Notes under the pieces: model-generated
Told to the model about the DNA's origin: nothing
Seen by the model: only the letters and a program-made list of their open reading frames with translations
Database searches by the model: none
In this document: positions 3,608-36,712 of the stretch, in pieces
Layout: the number at the start of each line of letters is the position of its first letter
Numbering within the stretch: the stretch's first letter is position 1
DNA from: Desulfonatronovibrio sp.
GTDB taxonomy: Bacteria; Desulfobacterota; Desulfovibrionia; Desulfovibrionales; Desulfonatronovibrionaceae
DNA length: 47,723 nucleotides
NCBI GenBank assembly: GCA_003566455.1
Contig: PXDF01000208.1
Coordinates: 1 to 47,723, forward strand
Reading direction: 5' to 3'
Made by a program: the position numbers and the translations under genes

Positions 3608-3610
3608 ACC

Positions 3611-5404: not shown

Positions 5405-5506
5405 GAAAGGAAATCATGCTCCAGACTTCTGCATTACCCAGGATGGACGATTCTGGTTATAGGCCCCATTATTAAATAAGCAAATCTGTAAATTCTGAGG
5501 TGAATC

Positions 5507-6187
5507 ATGTCCACAGACAAAGAATCAAACACTCATCCCTTTTCCATTAAAGACTGCGCCCTCATTGCCATAGCTACGGGCCGCAGGGCTTATACCCTGA
5601 CCGAGCTTCGGAACCATATCCGGGACGTAAGGTTAGACAGTATCTATCACCACTTCTGGGGAGGTCTTCTGGGAGTCGGCTTTGAAGAACTGGAATTCAA
5701 CAATGATTTCGCCAACTGGTGCCGCAAACACCTGGGTGAACCGGCTCTGGCTGAACAGCTTTCAGTAATCGATCCAGTGGAATTTACTGACCTGGAAGGA
5801 CTTCGCAGGGAACTGCTGGATATCATTGACGAACGCCTTGACAGCAATGAGATTTCTTATTTTCTGCGCTCCTCCCGCGCTTTTGAGTTCACCCGTTCTC
5901 TTCTGGTGATCTTTGATACCGGCAGAAGGATAACCCTTCCTCAAGAACTGCCCAGTATCCTTCCTGACCTTTCCACGGGAAGCATCTTTTACCATTTTAT
6001 TGACGCGCGCCGCAGACTGAAAGACGGTTCTGACGATTTCAGGTTCTGGCTCAGCAGCTGGGGTGAAGACTATAATGATTTGCGCAGGCGCCTGGCCGGA
6101 ATCGACCCTTTTTTCTCCAGCTTAAGTCAGGTCAGGGAGGAATTGACCAGGGTCTGCAGTGAATTTTTGACCAGGGAGGCGATATAA
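5507..6187 (+). CDS. DUF5752-like protein with two tandem homologous halves
   Basis: A 226-aa soluble protein without a known catalytic motif. I believe it belongs to the family named DUF5752, which accompanies trehalose genes in related bacteria, but I cannot search to confirm. The sequence shows an internal duplication: residues about 18-112 and 132-222 share TGRR (24 and 138), SIYHHF versus SIFYHF (45 and 159), DFANW versus DFRFW (67 and 177) and IDP (88 and 199). A GAGGTG ribosome binding site precedes the ATG. It sits between treZ and treT and overlaps treT by one base (TAATG), so a role tied to TreT, for example as a partner or regulator, is likely but unproven. Confidence 0.8.
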   Translation: MSTDKESNTHPFSIKDCALIAIATGRRAYTLTELRNHIRDVRLDSIYHHFWGGLLGVGFEELEFNNDFANWCRKHLGEPALAEQLSVIDPVEFTDLEGLRRELLDIIDERLDSNEISYFLRSSRAFEFTRSLLVIFDTGRRITLPQELPSILPDLSTGSIFYHFIDARRRLKDGSDDFRFWLSSWGEDYNDLRRRLAGIDPFFSSLSQVREELTRVCSEFLTREAI

Positions 6188-7428
6188 TGAACGGACTTCT
6201 TGAAGCATACGCCGGGGTTGCCGGTCGTCAGGTCATCTCACAGCTGCACCAGCTGGCAGACCATCTTAAGGGCATGAAAGTGGTTCATGTCAATTCCACC
6301 CGCGTGGGAGGCGGAGTAGCAGAGATTCTGGAAAAACTGGTTCCTCTGAGTAATGAACTGGGCCTTGACACAAGCTGGGAAGTGATCAGCGGTGATGATG
6401 ATTTCTATCAGTGCACCAAAGCCATGCATAACGCGCTGCAGGGGCATTCAGAACCCATTGATCAACGCCTTCTTGACGCGTATGAGCAGACCAACCGGGA
6501 CAACGCTGATAAAATGCGCTCTCAACTGGAGGAAGCGGATTTTGTGTTCATTCATGATCCCCAGCCCGCTCCGCTCTTCAGCCTGTGTCCGGGACGACGC
6601 GGACTCTGGGTCTGGCGCTGTCATATTGATGCCAGCCGTCCCTTCCGCCCGGTGTGGCGATACCTGCGCCACTACGTTAGCGATTATAACGCCAGTATCT
6701 TTTCTCTGCCGGATTTTGCCCAGGACCTGCCCCATCCGCAGTACATCATTCCTCCCAGCATTGATCCGCTGAGCGATAAAAACATTGAACTGCCCCAGGA
6801 AGAAATTGACGAGGTCAATGAAAAATTCGGAATTGCTCCTCATCGGCCTTTTCTTCTACAGGTTTCAAGGTTTGATCGCTTCAAGGACCCGGTTGGGGTA
6901 ATCAAGGCCTATCGCCTGTCCCGGAAATTCAATCCCGACCTGCAGCTTGTCCTGGCCGGAGGCACAGCCACTGATGATCCCGAAGGCGAAAAAGTCTTGG
7001 ATGAAGTGAAAACCGCTGCCGGGGACGACCCTGACATCAAGATTCTACTTCTGCCGCCAGACTCCCACAGGACCATTAACGCCCTGCAGAGGGCCGCCCA
7101 TATTATTATTCAAAAATCAATCAAAGAAGGATTCGGGCTCACGGCCACTGAAGGACTATGGAAGGGTAAGCCGGTAATCGGGGGTGACACGGGCGGCATC
7201 AGGCTGCAGGTGATCAACTATCATACCGGGTTTCTGGTAAATAGCCCTGAGGGCGCTGCCCTGCGCGTCCGCTATCTATTGCACAGACGCGACAGACTGG
7301 AAGAAATGGGCGCCAAGTCGAGAAAATTTGTTCTTGAGAACTTCCTGCTTACCCGTCATCTGCGCGAGTACCTTACCCTTATGGTTGGTCTGCTGCACAA
7401 GGCTGATTACCGCATTGAACTGGGCTGA
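6187..7428 (+). CDS. treT: Trehalose synthase TreT (NDP-glucose-dependent GT4 glycosyltransferase)
   Basis: A 413-aa GT4-type retaining glycosyltransferase. The N-terminal segment with HVNSTRVGGGVAEIL (near residue 35) closely follows the trehalose glycosyltransferring synthase TreT of archaea and Thermotogae. The C-terminal Rossmann domain carries FLLQVSRFDRFKDP and the nucleotide-sugar motif EGFGLTATEG. TreT transfers glucose from ADP- or UDP-glucose to free glucose to form trehalose, reversibly in some organisms. Its ATG overlaps the stop of the preceding DUF5752-like gene. Together with TreYZ it gives a second, glycogen-independent route. Donor specificity cannot be read from the sequence; a sucrose-synthase-like role is less likely because of the close match at the N-terminus. 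Confidence 0.88.
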   Translation: MNGLLEAYAGVAGRQVISQLHQLADHLKGMKVVHVNSTRVGGGVAEILEKLVPLSNELGLDTSWEVISGDDDFYQCTKAMHNALQGHSEPIDQRLLDAYEQTNRDNADKMRSQLEEADFVFIHDPQPAPLFSLCPGRRGLWVWRCHIDASRPFRPVWRYLRHYVSDYNASIFSLPDFAQDLPHPQYIIPPSIDPLSDKNIELPQEEIDEVNEKFGIAPHRPFLLQVSRFDRFKDPVGVIKAYRLSRKFNPDLQLVLAGGTATDDPEGEKVLDEVKTAAGDDPDIKILLLPPDSHRTINALQRAAHIIIQKSIKEGFGLTATEGLWKGKPVIGGDTGGIRLQVINYHTGFLVNSPEGAALRVRYLLHRRDRLEEMGAKSRKFVLENFLLTRHLREYLTLMVGLLHKADYRIELG

Positions 7429-7438
7429 GGACAACGTT

Positions 7439-8995
7439 ATGACCATGCAGCATATCACCCTGTCAAGATCTGCTTATGACGCGGTCATTTTTGATATGGA
7501 CGGAGTTGTAACCAAAACCGCGCGGGTTCATTTCAAAGCCTGGAAAAAGCTGTTTGATGAATATCTGAAAAATAAATGCAGAGAAAACCAGAGTCTCTTT
7601 GATGAACAGGACTATCGCAGGTATGTGGATGGGAAACCAAGATACAGGGGCATAGAGAGCTTTTTAGAGTCCAGAGGAATCAGTATTTCCTGGGGAAAGA
7701 AAGATGACGGACCGGACCAGGATACCATATATGGACTTGGGAACAGGAAAAATCGTTATTTCAATGAGTTGATCGATAAAGATGGTGTGGATGTATACAA
7801 ACCAGCCCTCAATCTTCTGAAAGAACTCAGGTCCGCAGGATTTAAAACAGCGATTGTATCATCCAGTAAAAACTGTGCTGCTGTTCTCGAAGCAGCCGGG
7901 ATTTCCTCTCTTTTCGACGAAAAGATTGATGGTAAAGACGCAGATGAACTGAATCTTCAGGGCAAGCCGTCACCGGACATATTTTTAAAGACCGGGGAAA
8001 AACTGGAGGTGCAGCCGAAACGGGCGGTAATACTGGAAGACGCGATATCCGGAGTTCAGGCAGGAAAAAACGGCGGTTTCGGTCTGGTCATCGGCGTGGA
8101 CAGGACCGGGCTGGGGGAGGATCTGAAAAAAAACGGAGCCCATGTTGTGGTCACCGATTTATCCTTAATAAAGGTGGACAATCGTTCTTCATCAACTGCG
8201 GATTTCCTGCCTTCGGCGCTGAAAGATTTCGAAAAATTCGCCCTCCGGGTAAAAAACAAAAAAATCGCAGTCTTTATTGATTATGACGGAACTCTTACAC
8301 CCATAGTTGATGATCCTGACAAGGCGGTCCTGCCGGAAGACATGAAAAAAGTGCTGGAAAAACTGGCCGACCAGCTTCCTGTGGCCGTCATCAGCGGACG
8401 AGACCGCGCTGATGTTCAGAATTTGGTTGGAATTGAAAATATCTATTACGCTGGAAGCCATGGATTTGACATCGCTGGTCCCGATAAAAAGGAAACAAAT
8501 CCGGACAATATAAAGGATTATCTGCCCGAGCTTGATCAGGCTGACAAGGAACTCAAAGAAAAGATTGAAGGTATTGAAGGCGCCTGGGTGGAAAGAAAAA
8601 AATTTGCCATTGCCCTGCACTACAGAAAAGTGAAAGAAAAAAACTTTGATCAGGTAAAACAGGCAGTTGAAGAAATTGCCCGGAACCATCCCAAACTAAG
8701 ACAATCAGGCGGGAAAAAAATCTTTGAACTTCGGCCCGATATAGACTGGCACAAAGGAAAGGCTTTGATGTGGCTTCTTGAAAAGCTTGATCTGGATAAA
8801 CCTGATGTTCTGCCGATATATCTGGGTGATGACGTCACAGATGAAGATGCCTTTGACGCCCTGCAAAATAGAGGAATAGGAGTGGTGGTGATGGATTCCG
8901 CGCGCAGTTCAAAGGCGAATTACCGGCTGAGAAACCCGGAAGAAGTCAGGCTTTTTCTGAACAAAATTATCTCAATCCAGAAAGGAAACGTGTGA
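7439..8995 (+). CDS. Fusion of beta-phosphoglucomutase-like HAD domain and trehalose-6-phosphate phosphatase
   Basis: A 518-aa two-domain HAD protein. The N-terminal half (residues about 12-255) matches beta-phosphoglucomutase: D19xD21 in IFDMDGVV, the SSSKN motif, GKPSPDIF and [12 protein letters not shown]. The C-terminal half (about 272-518) matches OtsB trehalose-phosphatase: D281YD283GTLTP, the ISGRDR motif, [10 protein letters not shown] and [12 protein letters not shown]. The start at 7439 has a GAGGACA ribosome binding site; a longer reading into treT at 7328 is possible but has no support. The next gene is a GH65 phosphorylase that would produce beta-glucose-1-phosphate, the substrate of the first domain. 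No trehalose-6-phosphate synthase is in the window, so the substrate of the second domain is uncertain. Confidence 0.9.
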
Positions 8996-11430
8996 TGTCG
9001 GTCTGGTCATTGATTTACAAGGATTTCAACCCTGAACAGGAAAAACACAGGGAAGCACTATGCACTCTTGGAAACGGCTACTTCGCCACCAGGGGAGCGG
9101 CCTTTCATTCATCCGCCAGCGACATCCACTACCCCGGGACTTACCTGGCTGGAGGCTACAACCGCCTGAAAACCGAAATTCAAGAGAAAATTATTGAAAA
9201 TGAAGACCTGGTCAACTTCCCCAACTGGCTCTGTCTGAATTTCAGATATTCCGGAGTAAACTGGTTTGATCTAAGACAGGTGGAAATCCTGGATTACCGC
9301 CAGGAACTGGACATGAAAAAAGGTCTTTTGCTGCGCAAAGTTCGTTTTCAGGACAGCCAGGGCAAGCGCACGGTCCTGAGTGAGCGGCGCATGGTGCACA
9401 TGGCCGAGTACCATCTCGCGGCCCTGGAGGTGACCATAACAGCTGAAAACTGGTCAGGTGAAATAGAATTCAGTTCCGCTCTGGATGGAACCGTGGTTAA
9501 TGACGGGGTAAAGCGTTACAGAGGTCTGAGCAACAAACATCTTGAACATGTAAAAACCATGGAAACAGACCCTGAAACCATCTATCTGAAGGTTAAGACC
9601 AACCAGTCCAGACTCGCTGTGGCTCAGGCAGCCAGGACCAGTGTCTGGAAAAACGGAGATAAACTTGAAATTGAAAGACAACTTGTACAGGAACCAGGCT
9701 ACATTGCCCAGCAATTCAAGGTTAAAGCCGGAAAAGGAGCGGATATCCGTTTGGAAAAGCTGGTCACCCTTTTCACCTCCAGGGACAATGCTTCAGCAGA
9801 GTGCGGTCTGGAGGCGAAAAACAAGATTCTGGAAACAGGCGGCTTTGATGAACTGCTTGATTCCCATATAAAGGCCTGGAAACACCTGTGGCGGCGTTTC
9901 AGTATTAAATACGAGGAAAAGGAACCACCAGGGGAAGACCGCACAGGCATGATACTTAATCTGCATACCTTTCACCTCCTTCAAACCTCCTGCATCAGCA
10001 CGCTGGAACTGGACGTTGGCGTTCCAGCCAGAGGATGGCATGGTGAAGCTTACCGGGGTCATATCTTCTGGGATGAAGTGTTTATATTTCCTTCCTTAAA
10101 TCTCAGAATTCCTGAAATTACCCGCACTTTATTAATGTACCGCTACCGCCGTCTGAACAAGGCTCGGGCCGCGGCAAAAGAAGCAGGCTTTCACGGAGCC
10201 ATGTATCCCTGGCAAAGCGGAAGCAATGGCCGGGAGGAAACCCAGAAAATCCATCTTAATCCCAGGTCCGGCAGATGGATTCCTGATAATTCCAGGAATC
10301 AGCGTCATGTAAACGCGGCCATAGTATATAATATCTGCAAGTATTATCAGGCTACTCAGGACATGGAATTCCTCTCTTTTTACGGTGCTGAGATGGTTCT
10401 GGAGATCGCCCGCTTCTGGGCCAGCATTGCGACATATAATTCTGAGCTCGACCGCTATGAAATTCTGGGCGTTATGGGGCCGGATGAATATCATGAAGCC
10501 TACCCTGATGCCAGTGAGCCTGGACTCAACAACAACGCCTACACCAATGTCATGGCGGTCTGGGTTCTCACCGAAGCCCTGGAAATGCTTGAGATCTTGC
10601 CTGAGGACCGGAAAAGTGAAATCCTTGAAATATTATCTCTTGAAGAAGAGGAGGTGAACCATTGGAAGGACATAAGCCGCAAAACCCGTCTTTGTTTTCA
10701 CGATGACGGGATCATCAGCCAGTTTGAAGGGTATGACAAGCTGGAAGAATTTGACTGGGAAGGATACCGAAAAAAATTCGGCGATATTCAAAGACTGGAC
10801 CGGATACTTGAAGCTGAAGACGACAGTACAAACCGCTACAAGGCTTCCAAACAGGCTGACGTGCTCATGCTCTTTTATCTGTTTTCAGCGGATGAATTAA
10901 GAAGCATCTTTGAACAGCTGGGTTATGACTTTGAATATGAAACCATCCCCAAGAATATCGATTATTATATCAAGCGCACCTCTCATGGTTCCACGCTCAG
11001 CTGGATAGTTCATTCCTGGGTACTGGTCAGAAGCGACCGGGCCCGTTCATGGAAGCTTTTTGAGGATGCTCTGGAAAGCGATATCTCCGATATCCAGGGA
11101 GGTACAACGCAGGAAGGCATTCACCTGGGCGCCATGGCCGGCTGCATCAATATAATCCAGGTTGGTTATACCGGGCTTGAAACCAGAGGTGATGTGCTGT
11201 GGTTCAGTCCTTGTCTTCCTGAAGAGCTGGACAGGCTTTCCATGCAGATACATTACCGGGGACACAACCTCAAAACTGAGGTACTTCCTGATAAATTAAG
11301 GATCACCACCTGCAGAGCAATAGAAAAACCCATCAAGATCGGCTATAAGGAAAAAACCTATGAACTTGAACAGGGCAAAACACTGGAAATAATCCTGAGC
11401 AGTCCTCAAGCCTCATGCAATGAGCAGTAA
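8995..11430 (+). CDS. Glycoside hydrolase family 65 phosphorylase (trehalose phosphorylase-like)
   Basis: An 811-aa GH65 protein with the N-terminal beta-sandwich (HREALCTLGNGYFATRGA near residue 20), the (alpha/alpha)6 barrel with RGHIFWDEVFIFP, the general acid E498 in VMGPDEYHEAYPD, the phosphate-binding HGSTLSW segment and a C-terminal jelly roll. GH65 members split trehalose, maltose, kojibiose or trehalose-6-phosphate with inorganic phosphate, giving beta-glucose-1-phosphate. Context (trehalose cluster, beta-phosphoglucomutase domain just upstream) favours trehalose. The ATG at 8995 overlaps the previous stop by one base and has an AAAGGAAA ribosome binding site; a GTG one codon earlier is also possible. 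It is the last gene of the cluster, ending before a strong hairpin. Confidence 0.87.
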   Translation: MSVWSLIYKDFNPEQEKHREALCTLGNGYFATRGAAFHSSASDIHYPGTYLAGGYNRLKTEIQEKIIENEDLVNFPNWLCLNFRYSGVNWFDLRQVEILDYRQELDMKKGLLLRKVRFQDSQGKRTVLSERRMVHMAEYHLAALEVTITAENWSGEIEFSSALDGTVVNDGVKRYRGLSNKHLEHVKTMETDPETIYLKVKTNQSRLAVAQAARTSVWKNGDKLEIERQLVQEPGYIAQQFKVKAGKGADIRLEKLVTLFTSRDNASAECGLEAKNKILETGGFDELLDSHIKAWKHLWRRFSIKYEEKEPPGEDRTGMILNLHTFHLLQTSCISTLELDVGVPARGWHGEAYRGHIFWDEVFIFPSLNLRIPEITRTLLMYRYRRLNKARAAAKEAGFHGAMYPWQSGSNGREETQKIHLNPRSGRWIPDNSRNQRHVNAAIVYNICKYYQATQDMEFLSFYGAEMVLEIARFWASIATYNSELDRYEILGVMGPDEYHEAYPDASEPGLNNNAYTNVMAVWVLTEALEMLEILPEDRKSEILEILSLEEEEVNHWKDISRKTRLCFHDDGIISQFEGYDKLEEFDWEGYRKKFGDIQRLDRILEAEDDSTNRYKASKQADVLMLFYLFSADELRSIFEQLGYDFEYETIPKNIDYYIKRTSHGSTLSWIVHSWVLVRSDRARSWKLFEDALESDISDIQGGTTQEGIHLGAMAGCINIIQVGYTGLETRGDVLWFSPCLPEELDRLSMQIHYRGHNLKTEVLPDKLRITTCRAIEKPIKIGYKEKTYELEQGKTLEIILSSPQASCNEQ

Positions 11431-15811: not shown

Positions 15812-18800
15812 TTAATACCCTGAAATTTGAACCTCTGAGGTAGAAACTTGGGTCTTTTGCACCCTGGATGCTTTGTTTGAATCAAACACCAGATAAGGTA
15901 TAATTTTCCGGTCCTTGTCTCCACCTGTACCATCATATGTGATGGAAACTATGGGCACTTGTATGCGGTCTTCTATGGTTTGCAACATGGCCTCGGTAAT
16001 TATGGAAGGACAGCAGAATGACGGACTGGTCTGCACAAAAAGTGAGACCTCGGGATAATATTTCTTAATATAATATATTTTGAGGATATTATCCATGGAT
16101 TCACCAGTGTTTTCCGGGATGACATTGAATTGGGACAGGATCCTGGCAGGAGGCACATCATATATCTGCTCCGGTTGTTTCAGGATCTTCTGGAAAATCC
16201 GGTGGTACTTTTTCTCCCGGTAACCCATGGTAGCCAGGAATGTCCGAGTGAAGAGCACATTAAGATACCTGCCCTCGGTGAACCATTTTTTGAAATAAGC
16301 CGGAGCGATCATTTTCAGATAATCAGTATACGGTGTTGTGATGACCTCTCCCTGATACCTTTCAATAAAAGAAATTAGGTCCATGTTGAAAATCGGATTA
16401 TCCCTGGCGTAAAGATCACCGAATATGGCCACCTGTCTTCGCTTGCCTGGAATGGTTTCAACTCTCGAAAACATGTCAACCACTTTCTGAACCGCGGATT
16501 CCTTGTCCTGTCCCGTTAGAAAAGCTTTTTCCAGAATCTCGAGACATGACTGAATCACCTGATCAGTTTCGCCGGCATTCTTTTCATATGGCCTTACGCG
16601 GCAGCCCATTTTTCGAAGCATCCCGCCGAACATAAAGGCGAAATAAGCATTCATGGAGGCTCTTACAGATATATCCGCAAAAGAAGTTTTTCCGGTGTAC
16701 ACCCCGGACTTTTCCATGCCGGACCCAAAAGAGGCGATCATCTGCTTTAACTTGTAGGGATAAAGGCGGATATTGCAGGCAATCTCCGCGTGACCCACCC
16801 AGAGTACCGCCTGTTCAGGCTTTATACCTTTTGAACGCACATGCTCCACGAACTCCTGGGCAATAACATTTATGGGAATGCATTGTCCGCTGTTCAGGCG
16901 CATGCTGCGCTTTATTGCCCCCTGGCTCTGCTGCATCAGCTCTGCGGCAATACCTTCCCGTCTGAGGTTGGCAACCAGCAGACGACAGGTAATGGGGTCC
17001 CAATTGGGAAAAATCACTGTTTTCCCGGCCATGGTGGAAGCCTTGACCGGGTTGATTCCCTTTAATTGGCGGCAAGGACTTTTTTCAATTGCCGCGTGAT
17101 TTCGAAAAGACCTGACTGCTGCCTCGATGCGCGTTTCATAGCCCACGCTGGAGCCGTGGGCGTCAGTTTCCAGAATCAGGTAAGGCTTGTCAGCGCCACT
17201 CATCATCTTCTGGAAAACATCACGAATAAAGGAATCGGGCGAGCAGCTGAATGAAGTCATCAGTACCGGGTAAACCCCGGAATTTCTGGATACGATCTCT
17301 GCAGCTTTCATTATATCAGCGGCGTAATTCCAATGCAGCTCAGACAGGAATGGATCTATAGGCGAGACTTTCTCGTTGTCAAAATTTATCATGTCCTGGA
17401 AAAAAGTCTTTACACCAAGGGTTGAAAATATCTTCGGAATCTTCTTGTTCATGGAGGGATCAAGCACTGTATAGGGTCTTCCAAGAAGCATCACACATAT
17501 ATCATCTGCCTGTGAAAACTGGTCATTATAAGTATTTTGCCACTGTTTCATGGCTTTCCGGCGCTTATTGACGGCTTCTTCATAAGCCCTGTAAATGTCC
17601 AGAAAACTCAAGCTGTTATCCATCCTGTTTATGGCCCTGTAAATTTCCAGGCGCTGGTACAGGCTGGAGTAGAGATATTTGATGACCGGTGATATCAGTT
17701 TTGCCTTGATTTCATCGTCAAGACCAGCCATCAGGGCCGGGATATACTGGGAATAATAGCAGAACTGACGTCTGGCATGGGAACCTGTATTGGAATTTTC
17801 CAGGTAATGGGGAAGAAATATGAAATCAACCCTGTCCGCAAGATCCGCCACATGCCCGTACATGGATGTGATGGGTGCGCAGAATTCAGCACCGGCCAGC
17901 TCTTTACCCTTTAAAAGAGCATTGTTGTTAATTTTTCCGGTTAATGTCCGGATGCCCAGCTGGCTGAAAAAATCCACCCACATGGAAATATCCTCATATA
18001 GATATAAAGCTCCTGGTATTCCCACTATCAGCCTTTTATTATGACGCACCCGGACTTTTCGGGGAAAAACCTTGCCATGAAAACGGACCAGATCAAATCC
18101 TGATGTGTTATTGTCAACAAATTTATGCGTCTCATAATCCCGACCGCACATAAAACCGTAGGCAACCGGACCTTCATTGATTTCAGCGACAGTAATCTTG
18201 CAGTGGTTGGGACATAATCGGCATATCTCTGAACGAACCGGTATCTCCCTTCTGTACAGATCAAGACCTCGAAAAAAACTGCTCTCCCTTTCTTCATCAG
18301 CCAGGTGCATGGCCACTCCAAGGGCACCGGTAAGATGGCAGTAGATAGAAACATGGATGGGCTGTTTAAGCCGCTGTTCAAAAGCGGCAACAAGGGCTCT
18401 GTTTTTGGCTGTAGCCCCCTGGAAGCATATAACCTTGCCGATGCTGCTTTCCACAGCCACCTTGTTCAGGTAGTTCTCCCGGACTGAATGCAGAGCGGCT
18501 GCGAGCACCTCGTTTATTGTATATCCAAGACTGAGATAATAATTGATATCCCTCTCCATGAATACAGTACACCTGTCGCTGGATATGGGCGAGGATACAC
18601 CCCTGGTCCTTTTGGAGTATTCCGAGAGTTCAACACCCATTTTTTCCGCCTGTTCTTCAATAAAACTGCCTGTTCCAGCCGCGCATACCGTATTCATGAT
18701 GGAAAAGGTCACGCTTCCCTTGCTCAGAGTGGTAAACTTGGAATCCTGGCCTCCGATTTCGATAATAGTGTCCACTTCCGGATTGAGCTCAACAGCAGCC

Positions 18801-20077
18801 CGGGCATGAGCAGTGATTTCATCCATGATCAGGTCGGCTCCGGCAAGGGCACCCACAAACTTCCGGCCTGAACCGGTGGTGCCCGCTCCTTTTATCTCCA
18901 GATTGAAGGAACTCCTGAGCGCCAGATCATCCATGGCTTCCAGAAGACTGCACATGGCCTGCACAGGTCTGCCGGCCGTTCTTGTATAAAAACCGGCCAG
19001 AACCTGTTTTTCAGGCGTTATCCATACGGCTTTGGTACTGATGGAGCCTATGTCCAGGCCAAGATAGACCTGGTAACTTTTCCCAGGTTCAAAAAGAGCA
19101 TATATATCGATTTCAACTTTGTTTGAAAATTTGCCGGAGTTTGACTCATATTCATAAGCCAGGCTTGAATCAAAATCAGGATAGTCAGACTGAACAATTT
19201 CCAAAGGAGGATGAACGTATTGCTTTTTGGTATCGACCTTGCCGGCAATACTAACTTTGCCGTCCAACCGTGTTGAGGGCGGGCCTGATTGGTCAATCAT
19301 CCTTATTGCGGCTCCCGCTGCTCCGTAAAGATGGGCCATGTCGTCCACCACAGGCTTTGAACCAATCATGGGACTTATATGTCTGATGACCGCACTGTTT
19401 TTAGCTACTCCTCCGCAAAAAATTACAGGAAGATTGGGTTTTTGACCTTTCAGTAAAGTATTTACAATGTTAGCGGCAAGGCCATGGCACAGACCATCAC
19501 ATATTTCCGGCAGATTGTACCCTTCCTGCTGGGCATGTGTCAGGTCTGTTTTGGCGAAAACAGAGCATCTTGAAGCTATTTTGGGCAGCTGACCAGTGTT
19601 GGAAGCCGCGATTCTGGCCAGTTGATCAATGTCCGAAAGCTTGAGCCGAGTGGCCTGCTGATCAAGAAAACTCCCGGTTCCGGCAGCACAGGATGTATTT
19701 GTTTTTAATCCGCAATAATCGCCATTTTGATCAAAAAAAAGCATTGAGAACTTTTCACCGCCAACATGAAAGACAGCGCCAACCTTGTCATTGAAATGTT
19801 TGGCCGCGGAAATTACCGCCACCCTTTCATCACAGCGAAAGTCCGCCCTGATGAATGAAGCTGTCTGATCAGTGGCCGCAACAGCGCCTATCCGGCAAAA
19901 ATCTATTTTTTTCAAAATTTTTTCCACGGTCTTAACAACATCACCGTGGTGGAATTCATAAAATCGATCCATCACCTTTTTCTGAGCGCTCAAAACCACC
20001 ATACCCACTGTAACTGAACCAATATCTATGCCAAGGGTATGATAAAAATGGGAATGGTTTTCATTATTTGTTTTCAT
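15812..20077 (-). CDS. Giant acyl-CoA dehydratase activase-related protein (two BadF/HgdC ATPase domains plus HgdB-like region)
   Basis: A 1421-aa cytoplasmic protein. Two ASKHA-fold activase domains are in tandem. The first has GIDIGS at about 16, C130 in CAAGTGSF and C171 in RCSVFA. The second has GLDIGS at about 340, IGGQDSK at 441, C465 in CAAGTGSF and C503 in RCTVF. In HgdC-type activases these two cysteines bind a [4Fe-4S] cluster shared by a dimer, so one chain could hold the whole cluster. A cysteine set follows (C619, C622, C626, C644), then a DUF2229-like and 2-hydroxyacyl-CoA dehydratase-like part ending with FCCPSIITEAML. Activases drive ATP-dependent electron injection in radical dehydratases and benzoyl-CoA-type reductases. 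The substrate here is unknown. Such multi-domain versions occur in many anaerobes. Confidence 0.85.
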   Translation of the reverse strand: MKTNNENHSHFYHTLGIDIGSVTVGMVVLSAQKKVMDRFYEFHHGDVVKTVEKILKKIDFCRIGAVAATDQTASFIRADFRCDERVAVISAAKHFNDKVGAVFHVGGEKFSMLFFDQNGDYCGLKTNTSCAAGTGSFLDQQATRLKLSDIDQLARIAASNTGQLPKIASRCSVFAKTDLTHAQQEGYNLPEICDGLCHGLAANIVNTLLKGQKPNLPVIFCGGVAKNSAVIRHISPMIGSKPVVDDMAHLYGAAGAAIRMIDQSGPPSTRLDGKVSIAGKVDTKKQYVHPPLEIVQSDYPDFDSSLAYEYESNSGKFSNKVEIDIYALFEPGKSYQVYLGLDIGSISTKAVWITPEKQVLAGFYTRTAGRPVQAMCSLLEAMDDLALRSSFNLEIKGAGTTGSGRKFVGALAGADLIMDEITAHARAAVELNPEVDTIIEIGGQDSKFTTLSKGSVTFSIMNTVCAAGTGSFIEEQAEKMGVELSEYSKRTRGVSSPISSDRCTVFMERDINYYLSLGYTINEVLAAALHSVRENYLNKVAVESSIGKVICFQGATAKNRALVAAFEQRLKQPIHVSIYCHLTGALGVAMHLADEERESSFFRGLDLYRREIPVRSEICRLCPNHCKITVAEINEGPVAYGFMCGRDYETHKFVDNNTSGFDLVRFHGKVFPRKVRVRHNKRLIVGIPGALYLYEDISMWVDFFSQLGIRTLTGKINNNALLKGKELAGAEFCAPITSMYGHVADLADRVDFIFLPHYLENSNTGSHARRQFCYYSQYIPALMAGLDDEIKAKLISPVIKYLYSSLYQRLEIYRAINRMDNSLSFLDIYRAYEEAVNKRRKAMKQWQNTYNDQFSQADDICVMLLGRPYTVLDPSMNKKIPKIFSTLGVKTFFQDMINFDNEKVSPIDPFLSELHWNYAADIMKAAEIVSRNSGVYPVLMTSFSCSPDSFIRDVFQKMMSGADKPYLILETDAHGSSVGYETRIEAAVRSFRNHAAIEKSPCRQLKGINPVKASTMAGKTVIFPNWDPITCRLLVANLRREGIAAELMQQSQGAIKRSMRLNSGQCIPINVIAQEFVEHVRSKGIKPEQAVLWVGHAEIACNIRLYPYKLKQMIASFGSGMEKSGVYTGKTSFADISVRASMNAYFAFMFGGMLRKMGCRVRPYEKNAGETDQVIQSCLEILEKAFLTGQDKESAVQKVVDMFSRVETIPGKRRQVAIFGDLYARDNPIFNMDLISFIERYQGEVITTPYTDYLKMIAPAYFKKWFTEGRYLNVLFTRTFLATMGYREKKYHRIFQKILKQPEQIYDVPPARILSQFNVIPENTGESMDNILKIYYIKKYYPEVSLFVQTSPSFCCPSIITEAMLQTIEDRIQVPIVSITYDGTGGDKDRKIIPYLVFDSNKASRVQKTQVSTSEVQISGY

Positions 20078-30111: not shown

Positions 30112-30495
30112 TCAGCCCTTGTGCTCATGAGCGGCTATGGTCGGACCTGATCTGGCAGGGGCTTTGGATTCTTTTTCCGGTTCAGGATTTTCTGAAACAG
30201 CCTGACCTGAATCCTTTTCAGTCAGTTCCCGGCTGGAAATTTTCATATCCACTGGTTTTACCTTTAACTCCTTATCCAGACGCCAGCCCAGTTCCAATTC
30301 GAGTTTTTCCTTGTCTTCTTTGGACTTGACTTTGATTTCCATTTCTATTGCCGATCCAGGCCTGACCGAAACAGCCTGTCCCTGTCCTTCTAAGGTCAAT
30401 ACCCCCTGTTTCATGGCGGCAATGATTTCATCAAGGCAGGAAATAAGCTCTTCTTTATCCATAACTCCTTTGAATCTGACTTCATTCTTGCTCAT
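30112..30495 (-). CDS. Amphi-Trp domain protein (GAK locus)
   Basis: A 127-aa small protein. Residues 1-80 fit the amphi-Trp domain: an opening strand (NEVRFKGVMDKEELISCLDE), an amphipathic helix with a conserved aliphatic pattern, a GVLTLEGQ strand, and a closing strand with a tryptophan (LELGWRLD). The remaining 45 residues form a charged, glutamate- and proline-rich tail ending in HEHKG that is probably disordered. Amphi-Trp proteins are family members of the GAK system; their biochemical role is not known. An AAGGAGAAAAA ribosome binding site precedes the ATG. It is the last gene of the locus, 61 bases after the CofD-like gene. Confidence 0.82.
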   Translation of the reverse strand: MSKNEVRFKGVMDKEELISCLDEIIAAMKQGVLTLEGQGQAVSVRPGSAIEMEIKVKSKEDKEKLELELGWRLDKELKVKPVDMKISSRELTEKDSGQAVSENPEPEKESKAPARSGPTIAAHEHKG

Positions 30496-30556
30496 GATTT
30501 TTTCTCCTTTTCCTTAAATTTTTCCCAGTAATGGAACAGTATTATCAGGTTTATAA

Positions 30557-31750
30557 TTACACCATGGACAACACAGTCTCAACAAACAGCTTATCATCAA
30601 GATATTGCCCGGGATGTTTCCGGATGAGTTGAGTTTCCAGGATTTCCACACCAAGATTCCTGATCTTTTCAACGTCAACTCCACCCTGATAAAGGGAGTG
30701 ATCTCTGTCAATAATTACAAGATCAAGGAGCCTGCCTTGGGGTTCAGATTCTATGCAGCTTTTCTTAAGATAATTAATCAGAATTTCAACCCGCTGATCC
30801 AGAGTTGTGCCGGTTTGTTCCGGATCATGCCCGGTATTGGGAATGTGCACTTTGGGACAGAGATTGGCTGCTATGGCTGACCCAACTCCTTTGGGGAGAA
30901 TATTTGCGATAATGCTGGAGTAAAAACTGCCCATGGGATAACATATCAGCTCAGCCTCCTGGATGAGCCTTTTGATCTTATCCTTGATGGGGGGGTAAAA
31001 AGGCGCTGGTTTGTTCAGGCTTTTACTCAGATAGACTTCCGCCACCGGACTCTCAATGGATACGGTTTCCTTGCCTGTAAGCATGTGTTGACCCCTGACC
31101 AGGGTATCGTCCTCCAGCCTGGCGATAAGATGCAGAAAAGTGTTCATTATGGGCCGGACTGTTCCCCTGGCCTCTGCCAGCCTGGTAAAAATATAAATTA
31201 CCGGATCAATATGCCTGTCATTGGCAAAATAGCCTGAAGCCAGAATAAGATTGCCGATGCTGGCCCCTTTGAGATCAAAGTCACGGGGCATTTTTTTGAT
31301 AAAAAATGAAAGATGGCTGCGGATAATCTGGCGCATGGGGTCATGAATATTTCTGATAAGGGAGTGGTTGCCCCTGGCCAGCGATTTCAGATGGTTATGC
31401 AGCTTTTTATTGTCCTCATTTGCGGGCAGCCGGTAAGCAAAAAGCTTGAATATCTCAGGATTACCCTTGACTGTCTGGTCTGCCAGAGCCATGAGCCTGC
31501 TGCGCATATCTCCCACCGCCGGCATGTTGAATGCGTCGCGAAGCTTGGCTGAACTGCCTCCTGAATCAAAGGGAGTAACCAGGTGGATGGAATTATGGGT
31601 ATACTCAACAAGGACCTTGCTCATGGAATTGAGAGCTGTGCCCCCGCTGAAAAAAAGTACCCTGGGGCCCAGTTCCGGAGCTTTAAGATATCTGGCCAGC
31701 TTGAGCTGATCAGGTATGGACACGCTTCTGAATAATCTTATTTTATGCAT
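30557..31750 (-). CDS. GAK-system CofD-like protein
   Basis: A 397-aa protein of the CofD/YvcK fold. The nucleotide/phosphate-binding N-terminus reads VLFFSGGTALNSMSK (31-45), followed by THNSIHLVTPFDSGGSSAKL (51-70) and PAVGDMRSRLMALA (77-90), all conserved in this superfamily. A second motif (FYSSIIANILPKGVG) is near residue 277. CofD transfers a phospholactate-type group in coenzyme F420 synthesis, and YvcK binds UDP-sugars and acts in cell-wall control. No other F420 genes are here, so neither function can be assumed. I recognise this branch as the CofD-related protein of the GAK system. It begins 24 bases after the ATP-grasp gene. Confidence 0.85.
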   Translation of the reverse strand: MHKIRLFRSVSIPDQLKLARYLKAPELGPRVLFFSGGTALNSMSKVLVEYTHNSIHLVTPFDSGGSSAKLRDAFNMPAVGDMRSRLMALADQTVKGNPEIFKLFAYRLPANEDNKKLHNHLKSLARGNHSLIRNIHDPMRQIIRSHLSFFIKKMPRDFDLKGASIGNLILASGYFANDRHIDPVIYIFTRLAEARGTVRPIMNTFLHLIARLEDDTLVRGQHMLTGKETVSIESPVAEVYLSKSLNKPAPFYPPIKDKIKRLIQEAELICYPMGSFYSSIIANILPKGVGSAIAANLCPKVHIPNTGHDPEQTGTTLDQRVEILINYLKKSCIESEPQGRLLDLVIIDRDHSLYQGGVDVEKIRNLGVEILETQLIRKHPGQYLDDKLFVETVLSMV

Positions 31751-31774
31751 GGTGTGTCACGCGCAAAATATTGA

Positions 31775-32659
31775 TCACCCCATCACCTTTTTGATGACAT
31801 AATCAGCAAAAAGTCCGGCCGCGTCGATTTTACAGGCCATATACAGTCCCCTGAACCCTCCAAAAGCTGACACTTCAAAAACCATGGGACCGTCTTCAGT
31901 TTCAACCACATCCACGCACGTAAAATCCAGATCAAAAAGGTCCTGGGCCTTGGAAGCCAGCTTGATAATCCCAGGTCCTGGCTCATGGGGCTCGTATCTG
32001 CCTCCACTGGAAGTACAGGTATTCCAGGACACACCCTGACGTCTGGCATAAGTTCCTATGTATTCACCTCCCAGAAAAACGACTCCCAGATCTCTTCCCG
32101 GTATATTGACCATTTTCTGGATATACATGGTAGTATTTCCAACGTCCTGGAATTTCTGAATTTTTTTCCGGCAGTGTTCATCGTCTTCTACCAAGACCAT
32201 TCCTCTTGCCTTGCTGGAATACAGAGGCTTTAGCACTGCCCGCTTGAACCGCCTGACCGCCTTGACAGCCTGATCAATATCTTCGGTAATCAATGTGGGC
32301 GGCATGGCAATGTCACCTTTTTGCAGAGTAACGGTACAGCTGAGTCTGTTTATGGCAGCCATTATTCTTTCGGGACGAGAGTAGACCGGTATGCCGATTT
32401 TGCAGAAAAACCTTAGTATCTCCAGCCTGTTGAACATGTCAGGGGAATAATCAGGACCCATTTTTTTGATGACCAGGGCGTCCAATGATGCCAGATCGAT
32501 ATCCTCCAGCAAAAGAGACCTGTTTTCAAAATCCATTGTCAAAGCGGACATTTCAGCCACGCACCTGAAACCTGTCTTTTCCTCCAGTGCGTCGGCGAGC
32601 TTTTCAGTGGACCAGCTCCCGGGATTCCCTATCACGGCAATTTTTAAATCCTTCATCAT
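31775..32659 (-). CDS. GAK-system ATP-grasp enzyme
   Basis: A protein of about 294 aa with the ATP-grasp fold, similar in layout to RimK-type ligases, which join a carboxylate to an amine with ATP. Visible are the N-terminal Rossmann-like part (KIAVIGNPGSW), the lysine segment RAVLKPLYSSKARGMVLV, the pair YIQKMVNIPGRDLGVVFLGG and the metal-binding end MVFEVSAFGGFRGL, where the usual asparagine of FEVN is replaced by S or A. I match it to the GAK-system ATP-grasp family. The start is uncertain: ATG codons at 32674, 32659 and 32656 are all possible and none has a strong ribosome binding site. Its substrate is unknown. Confidence 0.85.
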   Translation of the reverse strand: MMKDLKIAVIGNPGSWSTEKLADALEEKTGFRCVAEMSALTMDFENRSLLLEDIDLASLDALVIKKMGPDYSPDMFNRLEILRFFCKIGIPVYSRPERIMAAINRLSCTVTLQKGDIAMPPTLITEDIDQAVKAVRRFKRAVLKPLYSSKARGMVLVEDDEHCRKKIQKFQDVGNTTMYIQKMVNIPGRDLGVVFLGGEYIGTYARRQGVSWNTCTSSGGRYEPHEPGPGIIKLASKAQDLFDLDFTCVDVVETEDGPMVFEVSAFGGFRGLYMACKIDAAGLFADYVIKKVMG

Positions 32660-32689
32660 GGCGCCTGATTGCATATCTTGTAAGTTCAA

Positions 32690-32706
32690 CCACGCGAAGC
32701 GCGTGG
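32690..32706. repeat. GC-rich inverted repeat upstream of the ATP-grasp gene
   Basis: CCACGCG-AAG-CGCGTGG forms a 7-bp stem with a three-base loop about 35 bases upstream of the ATP-grasp start. It may be a transcript-processing or attenuation hairpin inside the GAK locus. It has no T tract on either side. Confidence 0.5.
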
Positions 32707-32757
32707 CAGGTGTTCAATGTTCAATCAATAGAATCAAGACAAAACCCGTCAGCTGCT

Positions 32758-32775
32758 ACTAGACACGTGTCTAGT
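32758..32775. promoter_or_regulatory. Perfect 18-bp palindrome in the GAK locus
   Basis: ACTAGACACGTGTCTAGT is a perfect palindrome with no spacer, lying in the 190-base gap between the PhoU-kinase fusion gene and the ATP-grasp gene. The form suits a dimeric repressor operator (for example of TetR type), and no terminator T run follows. The binding protein is not identified. Confidence 0.5.
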
Positions 32776-32848
32776 GGAATTATCAAGCAGGTATTTTAAG
32801 TAAGGTTTTGGCCTGTCCGTTTTTAATAAAAAATCTTTAATATTAATA

Positions 32849-34495
32849 TTAATATTTAGTATATCTGAAAACATCAGTGGGGAAGTCAAATTCCTCCCAG
32901 GGCTTATCCCGATGAGAGATGAGCTTTTCAGCCAGATATAGCGCCCGCTGATACATGCTGCCGGAAAATTCCCTGTCCAGTTCAAATCTTGTGGAGGTAA
33001 AAAAGGACCTGATGAGCCCCAGGGCAAGTCGGGTCTTGAAGAGCCGGTCTACATTTTCCAGGGCAAATTCCGCGGCAGAATTGAAAAAAAGCTGGTTCAG
33101 CTTGTTGACATTGCTTCTGAACACAGGATCAAAGTTTGGCTGGCGGAAATTGGATACCAGGAACACGGAAACATCCTGGACATAATCATTATAGCACGAT
33201 CGATGCAGATCAATAAAGTATACCTGCTGGTCCTTCTGATTGTATATGATGTTGTTGGAATTGAAATCACCGTGAGTAAACACCGAAAAAGGCGCGTTAA
33301 TGCTGTTTTCAATTTCAGTCAAAAGCTCAATGACCGTATTCAGGGACGGTGTAAGCAGGGAGCCGATTCTGGCTTCGGAAAAATCAAATTCAGGATGAAT
33401 CATGAGTACATCATCCACCCTGGCCACAAGCTGAGAAATGAACCTGGCATTGACCGGCTCATGGCGCATTGTTTTTTCCCAGACCAGGCTGAGGGTTTCT
33501 TTTAATAAAAAAAAGGCATTCTGCAGAACTTCCTCATCCTGCAGAGTAAGGGTCTCCTGAAATGAACAGCCCTGAAGAAATTCCAGAAGCATGGAGGCGT
33601 TGCCCCTGGACTGATGATAGCTGATAACTCTTGGGACCAGACTGGGAAAAATCTCCCTCCATATTTCAATATTAGCCTTTTCTCTGGCAATTTTTTCCAG
33701 CCTGCCTTCCTTGAACAGAACTCCCTTTTCCCCGCTCATGGCGGGATCGATTATTTTTCCGATGCGGCAGCCCGACCGGGATTCCCAGATGGATTCAAAA
33801 TCTACATCAGCAATGGGGATTTCGGTATTTATGGAATCAAGGCTTTCCTTGAGAGCCTGGTACTGATGAATTTTCAGTTTTTCACCAAATACGGAAAAAA
33901 TTATGGCCTCACCAATATTTAACAGAGAATCCCCCATCCTTTCCAGATACCTGAAAATAAAAATGCATGTAACCAGGTCCTGCTTGTTTCTTTCATGGTT
34001 GAGTTCTTCAATAATGGTGTCGAAACAGTTTTTGTACAGTTTGTCTATTATGAATTCCGTCTTGCAGATCTTCAGGGCCAGATTGAGATCCCTTTTAAAA
34101 AGGGCGGGATTGATAATTTCAAGTGAAGCCAGCATCTGCTGGAAAAAAGGTTTAAAATTGTATTCAGTGATTACCTTCGGATCCTTAAGGTATCCCAGCT
34201 GACCTACGATATTCACCGCGAAATCACTGATGCGTTCCAGGTTGTTGCTTATGATGTTTACGGCCCGGATAAAATCCACCCTCTGCTTGTTGAGGTTTTC
34301 AAGACCATGGATGCGAGAAAAGCAGATGTTCTCGATAACAGCCTTGTAATTATCAATATGGTCATCCCTTGACTTGACCTTGTCAGCCAGTTCTGATTGC
34401 GGGTTATGGATGATTTTCAGCGTGTTTTCCAGCTGCCTGGTCACTTCCAGGACCATAAACTGCATTTTTTCTTCCAGTTCTTTGAAATATTGCAT
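32849..34495 (-). CDS. PhoU-domain / aminoglycoside-phosphotransferase-like kinase fusion (GAK locus)
   Basis: A 548-aa fusion. The N-terminal part (about 1-215) is PhoU-like, with two ExxxD metal motifs in the three-helix repeats: NNLERISDFAVNI (E87, D91) and RYLERMGDSLLNI (E185, D189). The C-terminal part (about 240-535) has the fold of APH/choline kinases: an ATP lysine K262 in VLFKEGR, the catalytic loop THGDFNSNNIIY (D410, N415) and FIDLHR with D429. So the active-site residues of a small-molecule or protein kinase are intact. PhoU proteins control phosphate uptake and signalling; here the PhoU module probably regulates or targets the kinase. The ATG overlaps the stop of the amphi-Trp gene (TAATG). 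Confidence 0.87.
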   Translation of the reverse strand: MQYFKELEEKMQFMVLEVTRQLENTLKIIHNPQSELADKVKSRDDHIDNYKAVIENICFSRIHGLENLNKQRVDFIRAVNIISNNLERISDFAVNIVGQLGYLKDPKVITEYNFKPFFQQMLASLEIINPALFKRDLNLALKICKTEFIIDKLYKNCFDTIIEELNHERNKQDLVTCIFIFRYLERMGDSLLNIGEAIIFSVFGEKLKIHQYQALKESLDSINTEIPIADVDFESIWESRSGCRIGKIIDPAMSGEKGVLFKEGRLEKIAREKANIEIWREIFPSLVPRVISYHQSRGNASMLLEFLQGCSFQETLTLQDEEVLQNAFFLLKETLSLVWEKTMRHEPVNARFISQLVARVDDVLMIHPEFDFSEARIGSLLTPSLNTVIELLTEIENSINAPFSVFTHGDFNSNNIIYNQKDQQVYFIDLHRSCYNDYVQDVSVFLVSNFRQPNFDPVFRSNVNKLNQLFFNSAAEFALENVDRLFKTRLALGLIRSFFTSTRFELDREFSGSMYQRALYLAEKLISHRDKPWEEFDFPTDVFRYTKY

Positions 34496-34782
34496 TATGT
34501 ATTCTGATCAGGCCTGGGATTTTCCTCTGAAGAGTTGACCTTGAACCTGGAGTATTCCCTTTCTTCCCATCTGAAAACAAGACTCAGCTCTACCTCTCCA
34601 TCTTCCAGCCCGGCATTGATCCTGAACTTGATCAGGCCGTGGGGCTCCAGGGTGAGATTGTTGTTTTTATATGAAAAGTTGATGGTTCCCTGTTCAAACC
34701 CGTCTTTGAGCACTTCAAGATATCTGCAGATTGTTTCGCGGTCCTGGAGTGATTCAAGCACAAATTTTTTTTCTCTGGTCAT
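34495..34782 (-). CDS. Amphi-Trp domain protein (second copy, GAK locus)
   Basis: A 95-aa protein that is little more than one amphi-Trp domain: EKKFVLESLQDRETICRYLE, a GFEQGTINFSY strand, a LTLEPHGLIKFRINAG strand, and LSLVFRWEE with the tryptophan. The tail is short and polar. The ATG at 34782 has an AAGGATATT ribosome binding site; a longer reading begins at a TTG without support. It overlaps the following PhoU-kinase fusion gene by one base, which suggests a matched amount of the two proteins and perhaps a direct contact. Confidence 0.83.
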   Translation of the reverse strand: MTREKKFVLESLQDRETICRYLEVLKDGFEQGTINFSYKNNNLTLEPHGLIKFRINAGLEDGEVELSLVFRWEEREYSRFKVNSSEENPRPDQNT

Positions 34783-34916
34783 GAAATATCCTTGGCTGAG
34801 GATTAACAAGGCTTTGAAAATCTACCAATTGCTGAGTTATCCGCTGCTTAATTAACCTGTCATTGGCTGTCCTGGCGCACAATGACATGCTCATAACCGC
34901 TCATTTCAGGTCAATG

Positions 34917-36080
34917 TTATTGATTAAGACGGTCTCTATACTCTTTAATCATTTTTTCCCGGCTGAAGTCGCCCACAATCAGGGATTTCCTGATGGCCAG
35001 ATCCTCCCAGGCCGGCTGAACCCCGATATCCCGGTAATACTTGGCAGCTTCGATCTGGGTCGGATCCTTGATTTTCTCAGACATGTGAGCGTCATCTCCC
35101 ATGAATAAAAGAAGCTTTTTTTTATCAGGGCTTCTGGATTTATTCTGCCGGTTTATTACATTGACCAGAAACTCCGTATACTCCTGGGACTGGGGATTCC
35201 AGACCTCGTATCCGTCCACTTCATAGTCACACAGCAGTATGGGCCAGAACTGTTCCGGATGGGGAACGATTATGCCGCAGCGGTAAAATCTTGCCTCCTC
35301 AATCATCTCAGAAGTCCGGTAAAAGTAAGTCAGGTTGAAATTGCTCTTTACGATATTCTTTACGGCTTTAACAAGGACCTGGACTCTGTTTATGAACTGA
35401 TCCGGGTAAAGAGCCCTCTGAGCGTCAATAACATCTCGCAGCAGCTTGTTTTTGACTATCTCCATGTTCACTTTTGACTGATTCTTTTCCAGCTGATGGC
35501 GCAGCTTCCAGGCCTGAATCCGGGCAAAATTGATTACGGCTTCTCCCACTCCGGTACCTTCAGCGGCAAGCTGAAGATAATCATCCCATTTGGGATCAAT
35601 AAGGGTATCCAGAAGTTCATAAAGCTGACTGGAGCGATATTTAAAAGTGTGATCCAGCATTGACTTCAACACATGGGCATCTTTCAAATTTTTTGATTTA
35701 AAGTGCAGCAGGATCTGAACCTTGCGTTTGAACCCTCGGGAATAGCAGTCAACTTCTACCCCTGAATATTTCCCGTCATAGCTCATTATCCTGTTGTGCT
35801 GGGTTGGTATGATGAGTTCTTCCTGTTTGTCCGGAAAGGTGTTCTCAATTCTCTGCCTGATGATCTCCATGGGGATATGCTCAGGATGCCAGTGCACAGC
35901 CATCACGCATTTCTGCCCTGGAAAAACCTCATTGGGAGTTATTATTCTTTGCACCTGTTCAGGGGTGATCTCCAGGCTGGTGATTTTTTCAAAGGCCCGG
36001 ACATCGAATTCAGTGATTTCCCTGCTCACCTTTTCCGGGTCATTTTTTTTCAATTTGTCTTCAGGCTTAACCAGTTTCAT
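34917..36080 (-). CDS. PHP-like predicted metallohydrolase in the GAK locus
   Basis: A 387-aa cytoplasmic protein. I do not match it to a named family with certainty, but the order of putative metal ligands fits the PHP superfamily: H63 and H65 in AVHWHPEHIP, E109 in GVEVDCYSRG, H274 in IIVPHPEQFWP, E292 in DGYEVWNPQ, and D330 and H332 in FMGDDAHM. The region between residues about 130 and 260 is a long helical insert (YLQLAAEGTGVGEAVINFAR; QLEKNQSKVNMEIVKNKLL). PHP proteins are usually phosphoesterases. It lies between the XXXCH and amphi-Trp genes, with gaps of 71 and 134 bases. Assignment of hydrolase activity is inference. Confidence 0.65.
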   Translation of the reverse strand: MKLVKPEDKLKKNDPEKVSREITEFDVRAFEKITSLEITPEQVQRIITPNEVFPGQKCVMAVHWHPEHIPMEIIRQRIENTFPDKQEELIIPTQHNRIMSYDGKYSGVEVDCYSRGFKRKVQILLHFKSKNLKDAHVLKSMLDHTFKYRSSQLYELLDTLIDPKWDDYLQLAAEGTGVGEAVINFARIQAWKLRHQLEKNQSKVNMEIVKNKLLRDVIDAQRALYPDQFINRVQVLVKAVKNIVKSNFNLTYFYRTSEMIEEARFYRCGIIVPHPEQFWPILLCDYEVDGYEVWNPQSQEYTEFLVNVINRQNKSRSPDKKKLLLFMGDDAHMSEKIKDPTQIEAAKYYRDIGVQPAWEDLAIRKSLIVGDFSREKMIKEYRDRLNQ

Positions 36081-36151
36081 TTTTTCTTGCTTTTATTGTT
36101 TATATTCCTGACAACCCCTTCCCTGAAGGGTTAAGAGCTGAAATATCATGC

Positions 36152-36712
36152 TTATTTAAACCGATCATGACAATCTTTCATGAGACTGGCCAGACCACTG
36201 AAAGCCTGTCTCAGCTTATCCAGATCTTTCTGATTGTGAGCATGAGTCACCTCCTGAACATATTCCAGAAAGCGGGGATAATTTTCATCCCCATACCCTG
36301 GAAAACCGGTTATCAGGACGCAGTCTCTCAAGAAAAGATCCATATTTTCTACAGGCGGCAATTGATTGCTGGTCAGATTTTTATGAATACCCTTGAATGC
36401 TCGCTTCATCCGTTTTTTGATCGTTTTATAAGAAGAATTATCATCATTGACAGGTTCAGATTCTGATGCCTCATCTTCATTAAACTCCATTTCAAGGTCC
36501 ATGGAAGGCTCTTTCTTGAGTTTTGTCCTGACCATGAGCTGACTTTCCTGATTCTTAAAGGTAATTTTTATTTTTTTTATTTCCGACCAGTCAAAGCTTT
36601 CACCCCCAAGCTCCAGACTGCCGGTTTCAATGCCTGTGGCCAGTCCTCTCAAAAAATCAGCAGTCTGGTCATTGGTCATGGTCTGATCAAACTTTTTTTC
36701 AATTCTTTTCAT
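36152..36712 (-). CDS. XXXCH-domain protein with amphi-Trp-like N-terminus (GAK locus)
   Basis: A 186-aa acidic protein. The C-terminal half (about 125-186) fits the XXXCH domain, named for a terminal motif like the haem-binding CxxCH but lacking the first cysteine; here it reads LMKDCHDRFK. The N-terminal half (1-70) resembles the amphi-Trp domain: KKFDQTMTNDQTADFLRGLA, GIETGSLELGG and a hydrophobic strand IKKIKITFK. The middle is a glutamate-rich linker. No signal peptide is present, so it stays in the cytoplasm. It is the first gene of the locus, preceded by a promoter candidate. Role unknown. Confidence 0.8.
   Translation of the reverse strand: MKRIEKKFDQTMTNDQTADFLRGLATGIETGSLELGGESFDWSEIKKIKITFKNQESQLMVRTKLKKEPSMDLEMEFNEDEASESEPVNDDNSSYKTIKKRMKRAFKGIHKNLTSNQLPPVENMDLFLRDCVLITGFPGYGDENYPRFLEYVQEVTHAHNQKDLDKLRQAFSGLASLMKDCHDRFK

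Follow-up and report, generated by a model that had tools for sequence, protein, structure and literature searches.

A GAK operon without HprK_rel_B in Desulfonatronovibrio and a candidate connection of the GAK system to phosphate physiology

We analysed a 47,723-nucleotide stretch of DNA (the window) from Desulfonatronovibrio sp., a sulfate reducer of soda lakes, in which seven open reading frames (ORFs) on the minus strand fill positions 36712–30112. We found that these genes form a variant of the GAK system, a named system whose function is unknown. We read the locus as a GAK operon that lost the HprK-related kinase HprK_rel_B, and the GAK system as a module accessory to phosphate physiology (Pst-PhoU-Pho), a reading that we consider evenly poised between right and wrong. 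That the GAK system is linked to phosphate is, taken by itself, probable. The phosphate reading is based on the co-occurrence of the genes, on the presence of PhoU in the core and on repeated linkage to pst, phoU and phn genes.

Positions and gene starts were taken from ORF calling. In the order of transcription the genes encode an XXXCH protein of 186 residues (36152–36712), a PHP-fold protein of 387 residues (34917–36080), amphi-Trp protein A of 104 residues (34495–34809), a PhoU-APH fusion of 548 residues (32849–34495), an ATP-grasp ligase of the RimK/LysX superfamily (31775–32689), a CofD-like protein (30557–31750) and amphi-Trp protein B of 127 residues (30112–30495). The intergenic gaps are 24–160 bp and the amphi-Trp A gene overlaps the start codon of the PhoU-APH gene, thus the seven genes are likely to be one operon. 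Scans of the window for promoters and terminators stayed at chance level. Four of the five GAK families in NCBIfam were found in their usual order and well over cut-off, namely XXXCH (TIGR04358, 86.1 bits, cut-off 40), amphi-Trp (TIGR04354, 60.1 bits for A and 59.0 bits for B, cut-off 31), grasp_GAK (TIGR04356, 443.9 bits, cut-off 300) and CofD_rel_GAK (TIGR04357, 546.1 bits, cut-off 340). Since the fifth, HprK_rel_B (TIGR04355), is missing, we class the locus as a GAK variant and not as a full member. An earlier note on this DNA had described seven genes on one strand in this order, a GAK-type locus and a toolkit of ligase, kinase, possible phosphoesterase and CofD-like protein, and the ORF list, the family matches and, for the phosphoesterase, the predicted fold agree with it on each of these. 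No NCBIfam GAK model matches the PHP protein or the PhoU-APH fusion, though both are regular members in relatives. We found no literature on GAK or amphi-Trp, and no open-library paper mentions the amphi-Trp or GAK models.

About 40 of 80 CofD_GAK loci have the order (XXXCH)-PHP-amphi-Trp-PhoU/APH-ATP-grasp-(HprK_rel_B)-CofD-(amphi-Trp). These loci come from Desulfobacterota-type genomes and from records titled Nitrospirae, Zixibacteriota, Lambdaproteobacteria and others; some of the relatives were found with the CofD-like protein of this window and are biased towards it, and contigs of metagenome-assembled genomes break loci. Planctomycete and Coatesbacteria genomes also hold PHP and PhoU-APH, and two gammaproteobacteria have PhoU-APH, the ligase and HprK_rel_B with PHP missing. 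Of the 150 genomes examined from the order, 78 have PHP, and PhoU-APH is present in all of these 78 and in no other; nearly every one has a single PHP gene. In 77 of the 78 the ligase exceeds the grasp_GAK cut-off, and in the remaining genome it is truncated. CofD_GAK is broader and exceeds its cut-off in 127 of the 150. PHP and PhoU-APH are standard members of the GAK system, and the composition in the window is the usual set minus HprK_rel_B. The earlier note had called this composition new, a claim that fails because about 40 loci from several phyla have the genes in this order. It had also named genes that are scattered and never co-occur as an outcome that would refute its reading; the survey found instead that even the parts of split loci stay within the same genomes. 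When about 200 flanking proteins were sorted by Pfam family, none of the families dominated. In L005, L006, L007 (upstream of XXXCH), L021, L032 and L043 a low-molecular-weight phosphatase/ArsC-like gene adjoins the GAK operon.

A profile search for HprK_rel_B in the locus and in the 96.5%-complete source genome reached 20.3 bits at best, whereas the cut-off is 200. This bears out the earlier note, which had recorded the HprK-related kinase as absent from the locus. In the order, HprK_rel_B is present in 67 of the 78 GAK genomes and nowhere else, and is absent from the other 11, and it is an optional, dispensable part of GAK. In gene maps of about 30 syntenic loci it stands between the ATP-grasp and CofD genes, and the 24-bp gap between these two genes in the window (31751–31774, minus strand) is its site in most relatives. 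Most members of the family of the source genome have no HprK_rel_B in the main operon any more, though G054 and L120 have kept it. The HprK_rel_B proteins of relatives keep the P-loop. In three relatives the gene sits outside the main GAK operon. In L118 it lies upstream of pstSCAB, separated from it by one small gene; in L116 it stands where pstSCA ends, opposite pstB-phoU, and a second pair of PhoU-APH and ligase genes is convergent with it; and in L117 it is beside phnCDE and a PhoH-type gene.

The earlier note proposed that the PhoU-fused kinase may stand in for HprK, and the absence of HprK_rel_B here together with an active-looking kinase would fit a replacement in this lineage. However, PhoU-APH and HprK_rel_B coexist in all 67 HprK_rel_B genomes of the order and in the roughly 30 syntenic loci. 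This coexistence rules out the claim that the one replaced the other, and we consider such a history extremely improbable. PhoU-APH may have taken over functionally after the loss of HprK_rel_B.

The association with phosphate genes came from targeted searches for pst and phn genes and from gene maps, with pstB searched in the same 150 genomes. Of 64 genomes, 9 have HprK_rel_B no more than 10 kb away from pstB, where about 0.5 would be expected; a recA control gave 0. CofD was within 10 kb of pstB in 14 of 109 genomes, against about 0.8; both expectations are Poisson values that assume uniform gene placement and 3.5 Mb per genome. The arrangements differ among genera. The order pstB-phoU-HprK_rel_B-CofD is represented by L161 and was recognised from gene coordinates in six genomes belonging to a single genus, and pst-phoU is followed by XXXCH, PHP and onward genes in L164 and L165, from two genera of the order. 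Outside the order we found pstSCAB-phoU-XXXCH-PHP in L038, pstSCA-GAK in L020 and pstB-phoU-GAK in L012, where XXXCH and PHP come next after phoU. The order pstB-phoU-short XXXCH-CofD lies beside recA in L130 and L134 (genera g20 and g24). The CofD gene of L130 and L134 is a second copy, or the only copy (G122), without a full GAK set. The GAK system thus resembles Pst-PhoU uptake and signalling in having a PhoU domain in its core and in lying directly after pstB-phoU in several genera. It differs in the fusion of PhoU to an APH kinase and in the position of the window's operon, which is not beside pst.

We also scanned for Pho boxes using the PhoB half-site of D. vulgaris, (c/t)GTnAC (PMC3333781), with a period of 11. 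Pho-box-like direct repeats scoring at least 9/10 were found upstream of 18 of 59 GAK operons; for other operons the count was 33 of 273 (p 8e-4, a value to be roughly doubled because two spacers were tried). The GAK promoters of L146, L147 and L153 are among those with 10/10 sites. The pst operons, a positive control, gave 10 of 18. The same D. vulgaris paper lists PhoU genes among the PhoB targets (PMC3333781), and a D. alaskensis fitness paper on phosphate limitation describes a late-starvation phenotype for the phoU homolog Dde_2835 (PMC5193443); these genes are at most candidate GAK fusions. In the passages of the D. alaskensis paper that we read, we found no GAK gene named (PMC5193443).

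Several observations weigh against a phosphate role. The recA control for CofD gave five cases, which are part of the CofD-pstB count and all of one arrangement in which pst itself is near recA, and since they share this synteny it is arrangements and not genomes that should be counted. By such a count several of the nine HprK_rel_B cases are inherited within a genus, leaving roughly four to six independent events. PhoU-APH is weakly enriched near pstB (3 of 70, p 0.02), and most GAK loci do not adjoin pst. The operon of the window has no pst gene in its vicinity, and pstB of this genome is on contig C64. The best Pho-box-like site of the window operon scores 8/10, within background. Finally, the Pho-box signal was obtained with a spacer of 5 in place of the published 4; both were tried, and with the 4-base spacer there was no enrichment upstream of GAK operons.

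The protein that brings PhoU into the system is the 548-residue fusion, which contains a two-repeat PhoU domain (87.4 bits, Pfam gathering threshold 23.5) and an APH kinase domain (39.4 bits, threshold 23.2). Every locus carries a PhoU domain as a fused part of the core. Both PhoU repeats keep ExxxD-type motifs (E87/D91 and E185/D189), and the APH-type catalytic residues H408-G-D410, N415 and D429 are invariant in 40 relatives. The kinase looks active. The closest solved structures are 4q25 for the PhoU half and 4feu for the APH half.

The 387-residue protein matches no Pfam or NCBIfam family, either alone or through 40 relatives, and a sequence search against solved structures returned nothing relevant. 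Its AlphaFold model (predicted local distance difference test score, pLDDT, 93.9; predicted template modelling score, pTM, 0.90) matched 3o0f (Z 15.9), RNase AM 9etk (Z 15.4) and 2yb1 (Z 14.7), and these matches to PHP enzymes far exceed those to unrelated folds. The protein is thus predicted to have the PHP phosphoesterase fold, and the label "PHP-like" of the earlier note is upheld by fold and not by sequence family. Compared with the PHP phosphoesterases RNase AM, BAD_1165 and the 2yb1 amidohydrolase, the likeness is one of predicted fold, with Z of about 15 over about 240 residues; the differences are an identity of 12–15%, a large helical insert at about 130–250 and the lack of a sequence-level family match. 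Residues H63xH65, H95, E109, H126, H274 and D330xH332 are invariant in 40 sequences and would fit a putative PHP metal site.

The translation start of the ATP-grasp ligase may be an internal ATG near 32653. Its closest solved structures are LysX and RimK. It shares the ATP-grasp superfamily with the amino-acid ligases LysX, RimK and MptN, but falls under every cut-off of these families. At the metal site the aligned LysX/RimK-type sequences read Glu-x-Asn, whereas Glu-x-Ser (E272/S274) is invariant throughout the ATP-grasp family of GAK. This serine (S274, gene at 31775–32689) could alter the chemistry.

F420 biosynthesis is known to pair CofD with an ATP-grasp ligase, and the NCBIfam model that the ligase matches best after GAK itself is MptN, the tetrahydromethanopterin:glutamate ligase (158.9 bits, cut-off 350). 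These two points favour a pathway of the F420 or tetrahydromethanopterin type, in which the CofD-like protein would form a phosphodiester, the ATP-grasp enzyme add glutamate, APH phosphorylate an intermediate, PHP trim it, and the amphi-Trp and XXXCH proteins bind the product. We consider this pathway possible but unlikely. The broad Pfam CofD domain matches the CofD-like protein at 126.8 bits, but no CofD (2-phospho-L-lactate transferase) equivalog was among its NCBIfam hits up to E 1. The YvcK model TIGR01826 scored 112.3 bits, and all solved relatives found are of the UPF0052/YvcK type. The GAK CofD-like protein is closer to YvcK than to CofD; it belongs with YvcK/UPF0052 in the CofD-like fold family, but its score is under the subfamily cut-off of 196. 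In addition, we saw no CofC-type nucleotidyltransferase among the conserved genes of the operon.

The XXXCH protein has an N-terminal amphi-Trp-like domain and a C-terminal four-helix bundle of the cytochrome c' type (profile match to cytochrome c', E 7e-4). In its AlphaFold model (pLDDT 88.3, pTM 0.59) the match to cytochrome c' has a Z of about 10.4, a likeness to be read with caution, as four-helix bundles match one another easily and others score equally. The family shares the C-terminal helix and the CHxxYK end with cytochrome c'. However, it is fused to the amphi-Trp-like domain and is without the first heme-binding Cys, so that the heme attachment motif CxxCH is absent; the sequence in the window is LMKDCH. 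Inspection by eye, without a predictor, revealed no N-terminal export signal. Amphi-Trp B has a variable C-terminal tail, and its position after CofD recurs in relatives. The earlier note had called these proteins small and acidic; this description is weak, as the isoelectric points in the window are 5.1–5.9 and the upstream amphi-Trp proteins of relatives are about neutral.

That note favoured peptide modification, and a modification cycle without a phosphate role would have the ligase tag XXXCH or amphi-Trp proteins, the kinases phosphorylate them and PHP reset them. LysX and RimK modify protein C-termini or carrier proteins, and the C-terminus of XXXCH is almost fixed, with 24 of 26 proteins ending in Lys. 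However, since the CHxxYK end is shared with cytochrome c', its conservation may be structural, and the cycle leaves the linkage to pst, phn and PhoU unexplained. We consider such a cycle unlikely, and the phosphate link, which that note had not brought up, a stronger clue than the peptide-modification model.

A further alternative is phosphate-saving remodelling of the envelope or of glycolipids, in which GAK would act together with a fusion of PHP and a GT4 glycosyltransferase. We observed this fusion (about 800 residues) near about nine GAK loci. In L116 (genome G032) it lies at 3825–6287 and heads a second GAK locus, and it is also near GAK in L020, L021, L022, L030, L031, L032, L037, L049, L055 and L161. 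For its glycosyltransferase half the best match is to glycolipid-type synthases, namely the model of a glucosaminyl-phosphatidylglycerol synthase, at a score below cut-off. In D. alaskensis more than 90% of phospholipids are replaced under phosphate limitation (PMC5193443). The fusion near GAK loci and this glycolipid response make remodelling worth testing. Nevertheless, the fusion is outside the strict core, the glycosyltransferase assignment is below cut-off and no fusion was noted beside the operon of the window, and we regard remodelling as very doubtful. In a profile comparison of the 387-residue protein with the fusion family two motifs were in register, but the match was not significant.

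We propose that GAK is a phosphotransfer-and-ligation module coupled to Pst/PhoU, with putative chemistry as follows. The PhoU half of PhoU-APH would act as the sensor of phosphate status, a part that PhoU plays for PstB, and would gate the APH kinase; HprK_rel_B, where present, would be a second kinase. The RimK/LysX-type ligase would couple an amino acid to a carboxylate group, and the most likely bearer of this group is an XXXCH protein, an amphi-Trp protein or a small molecule carried by these proteins. The YvcK/CofD-like protein would bind or transfer a nucleotide-linked group, and the PHP enzyme would take off a phosphoryl or phosphodiester group and so reset the cycle. As a specific reaction scheme this is unlikely to be correct. 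A narrower version, a phosphate-gated protein-tagging relay, would have PhoU-APH read phosphate, the ligase extend the C-terminus of XXXCH or amphi-Trp and PHP reverse the phosphorylation, as a hitherto undescribed signalling side branch of Pst-PhoU; this we hold to be quite unlikely.

For a system known by name, the analysis adds two regular members that are missing from the family models, a PHP enzyme and a PhoU-kinase fusion. The dispensability of HprK_rel_B and the proposed phosphate connection turn its "unknown function" into a testable idea, which bears on how bacteria of phosphate-poor anoxic settings save phosphorus.

Elsewhere in the source genome, L001 (G000:C213:1-2013) carries a gene for an HprK-like ATPase and, directly after it, a radical SAM-like gene with CxxxCxxC in its reading frame. 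This pair is unrelated to GAK and may be a peptide-modification cluster. On the plus strand of the window, positions 932–11430 hold alpha-amylase-type and GH65 glycoside phosphorylase/hydrolase genes, a possible storage-sugar cluster. Positions 15812–20077 encode a BadF/BcrA-type ATPase of 1421 residues with DUF2229, of the CoA enzyme activase family.

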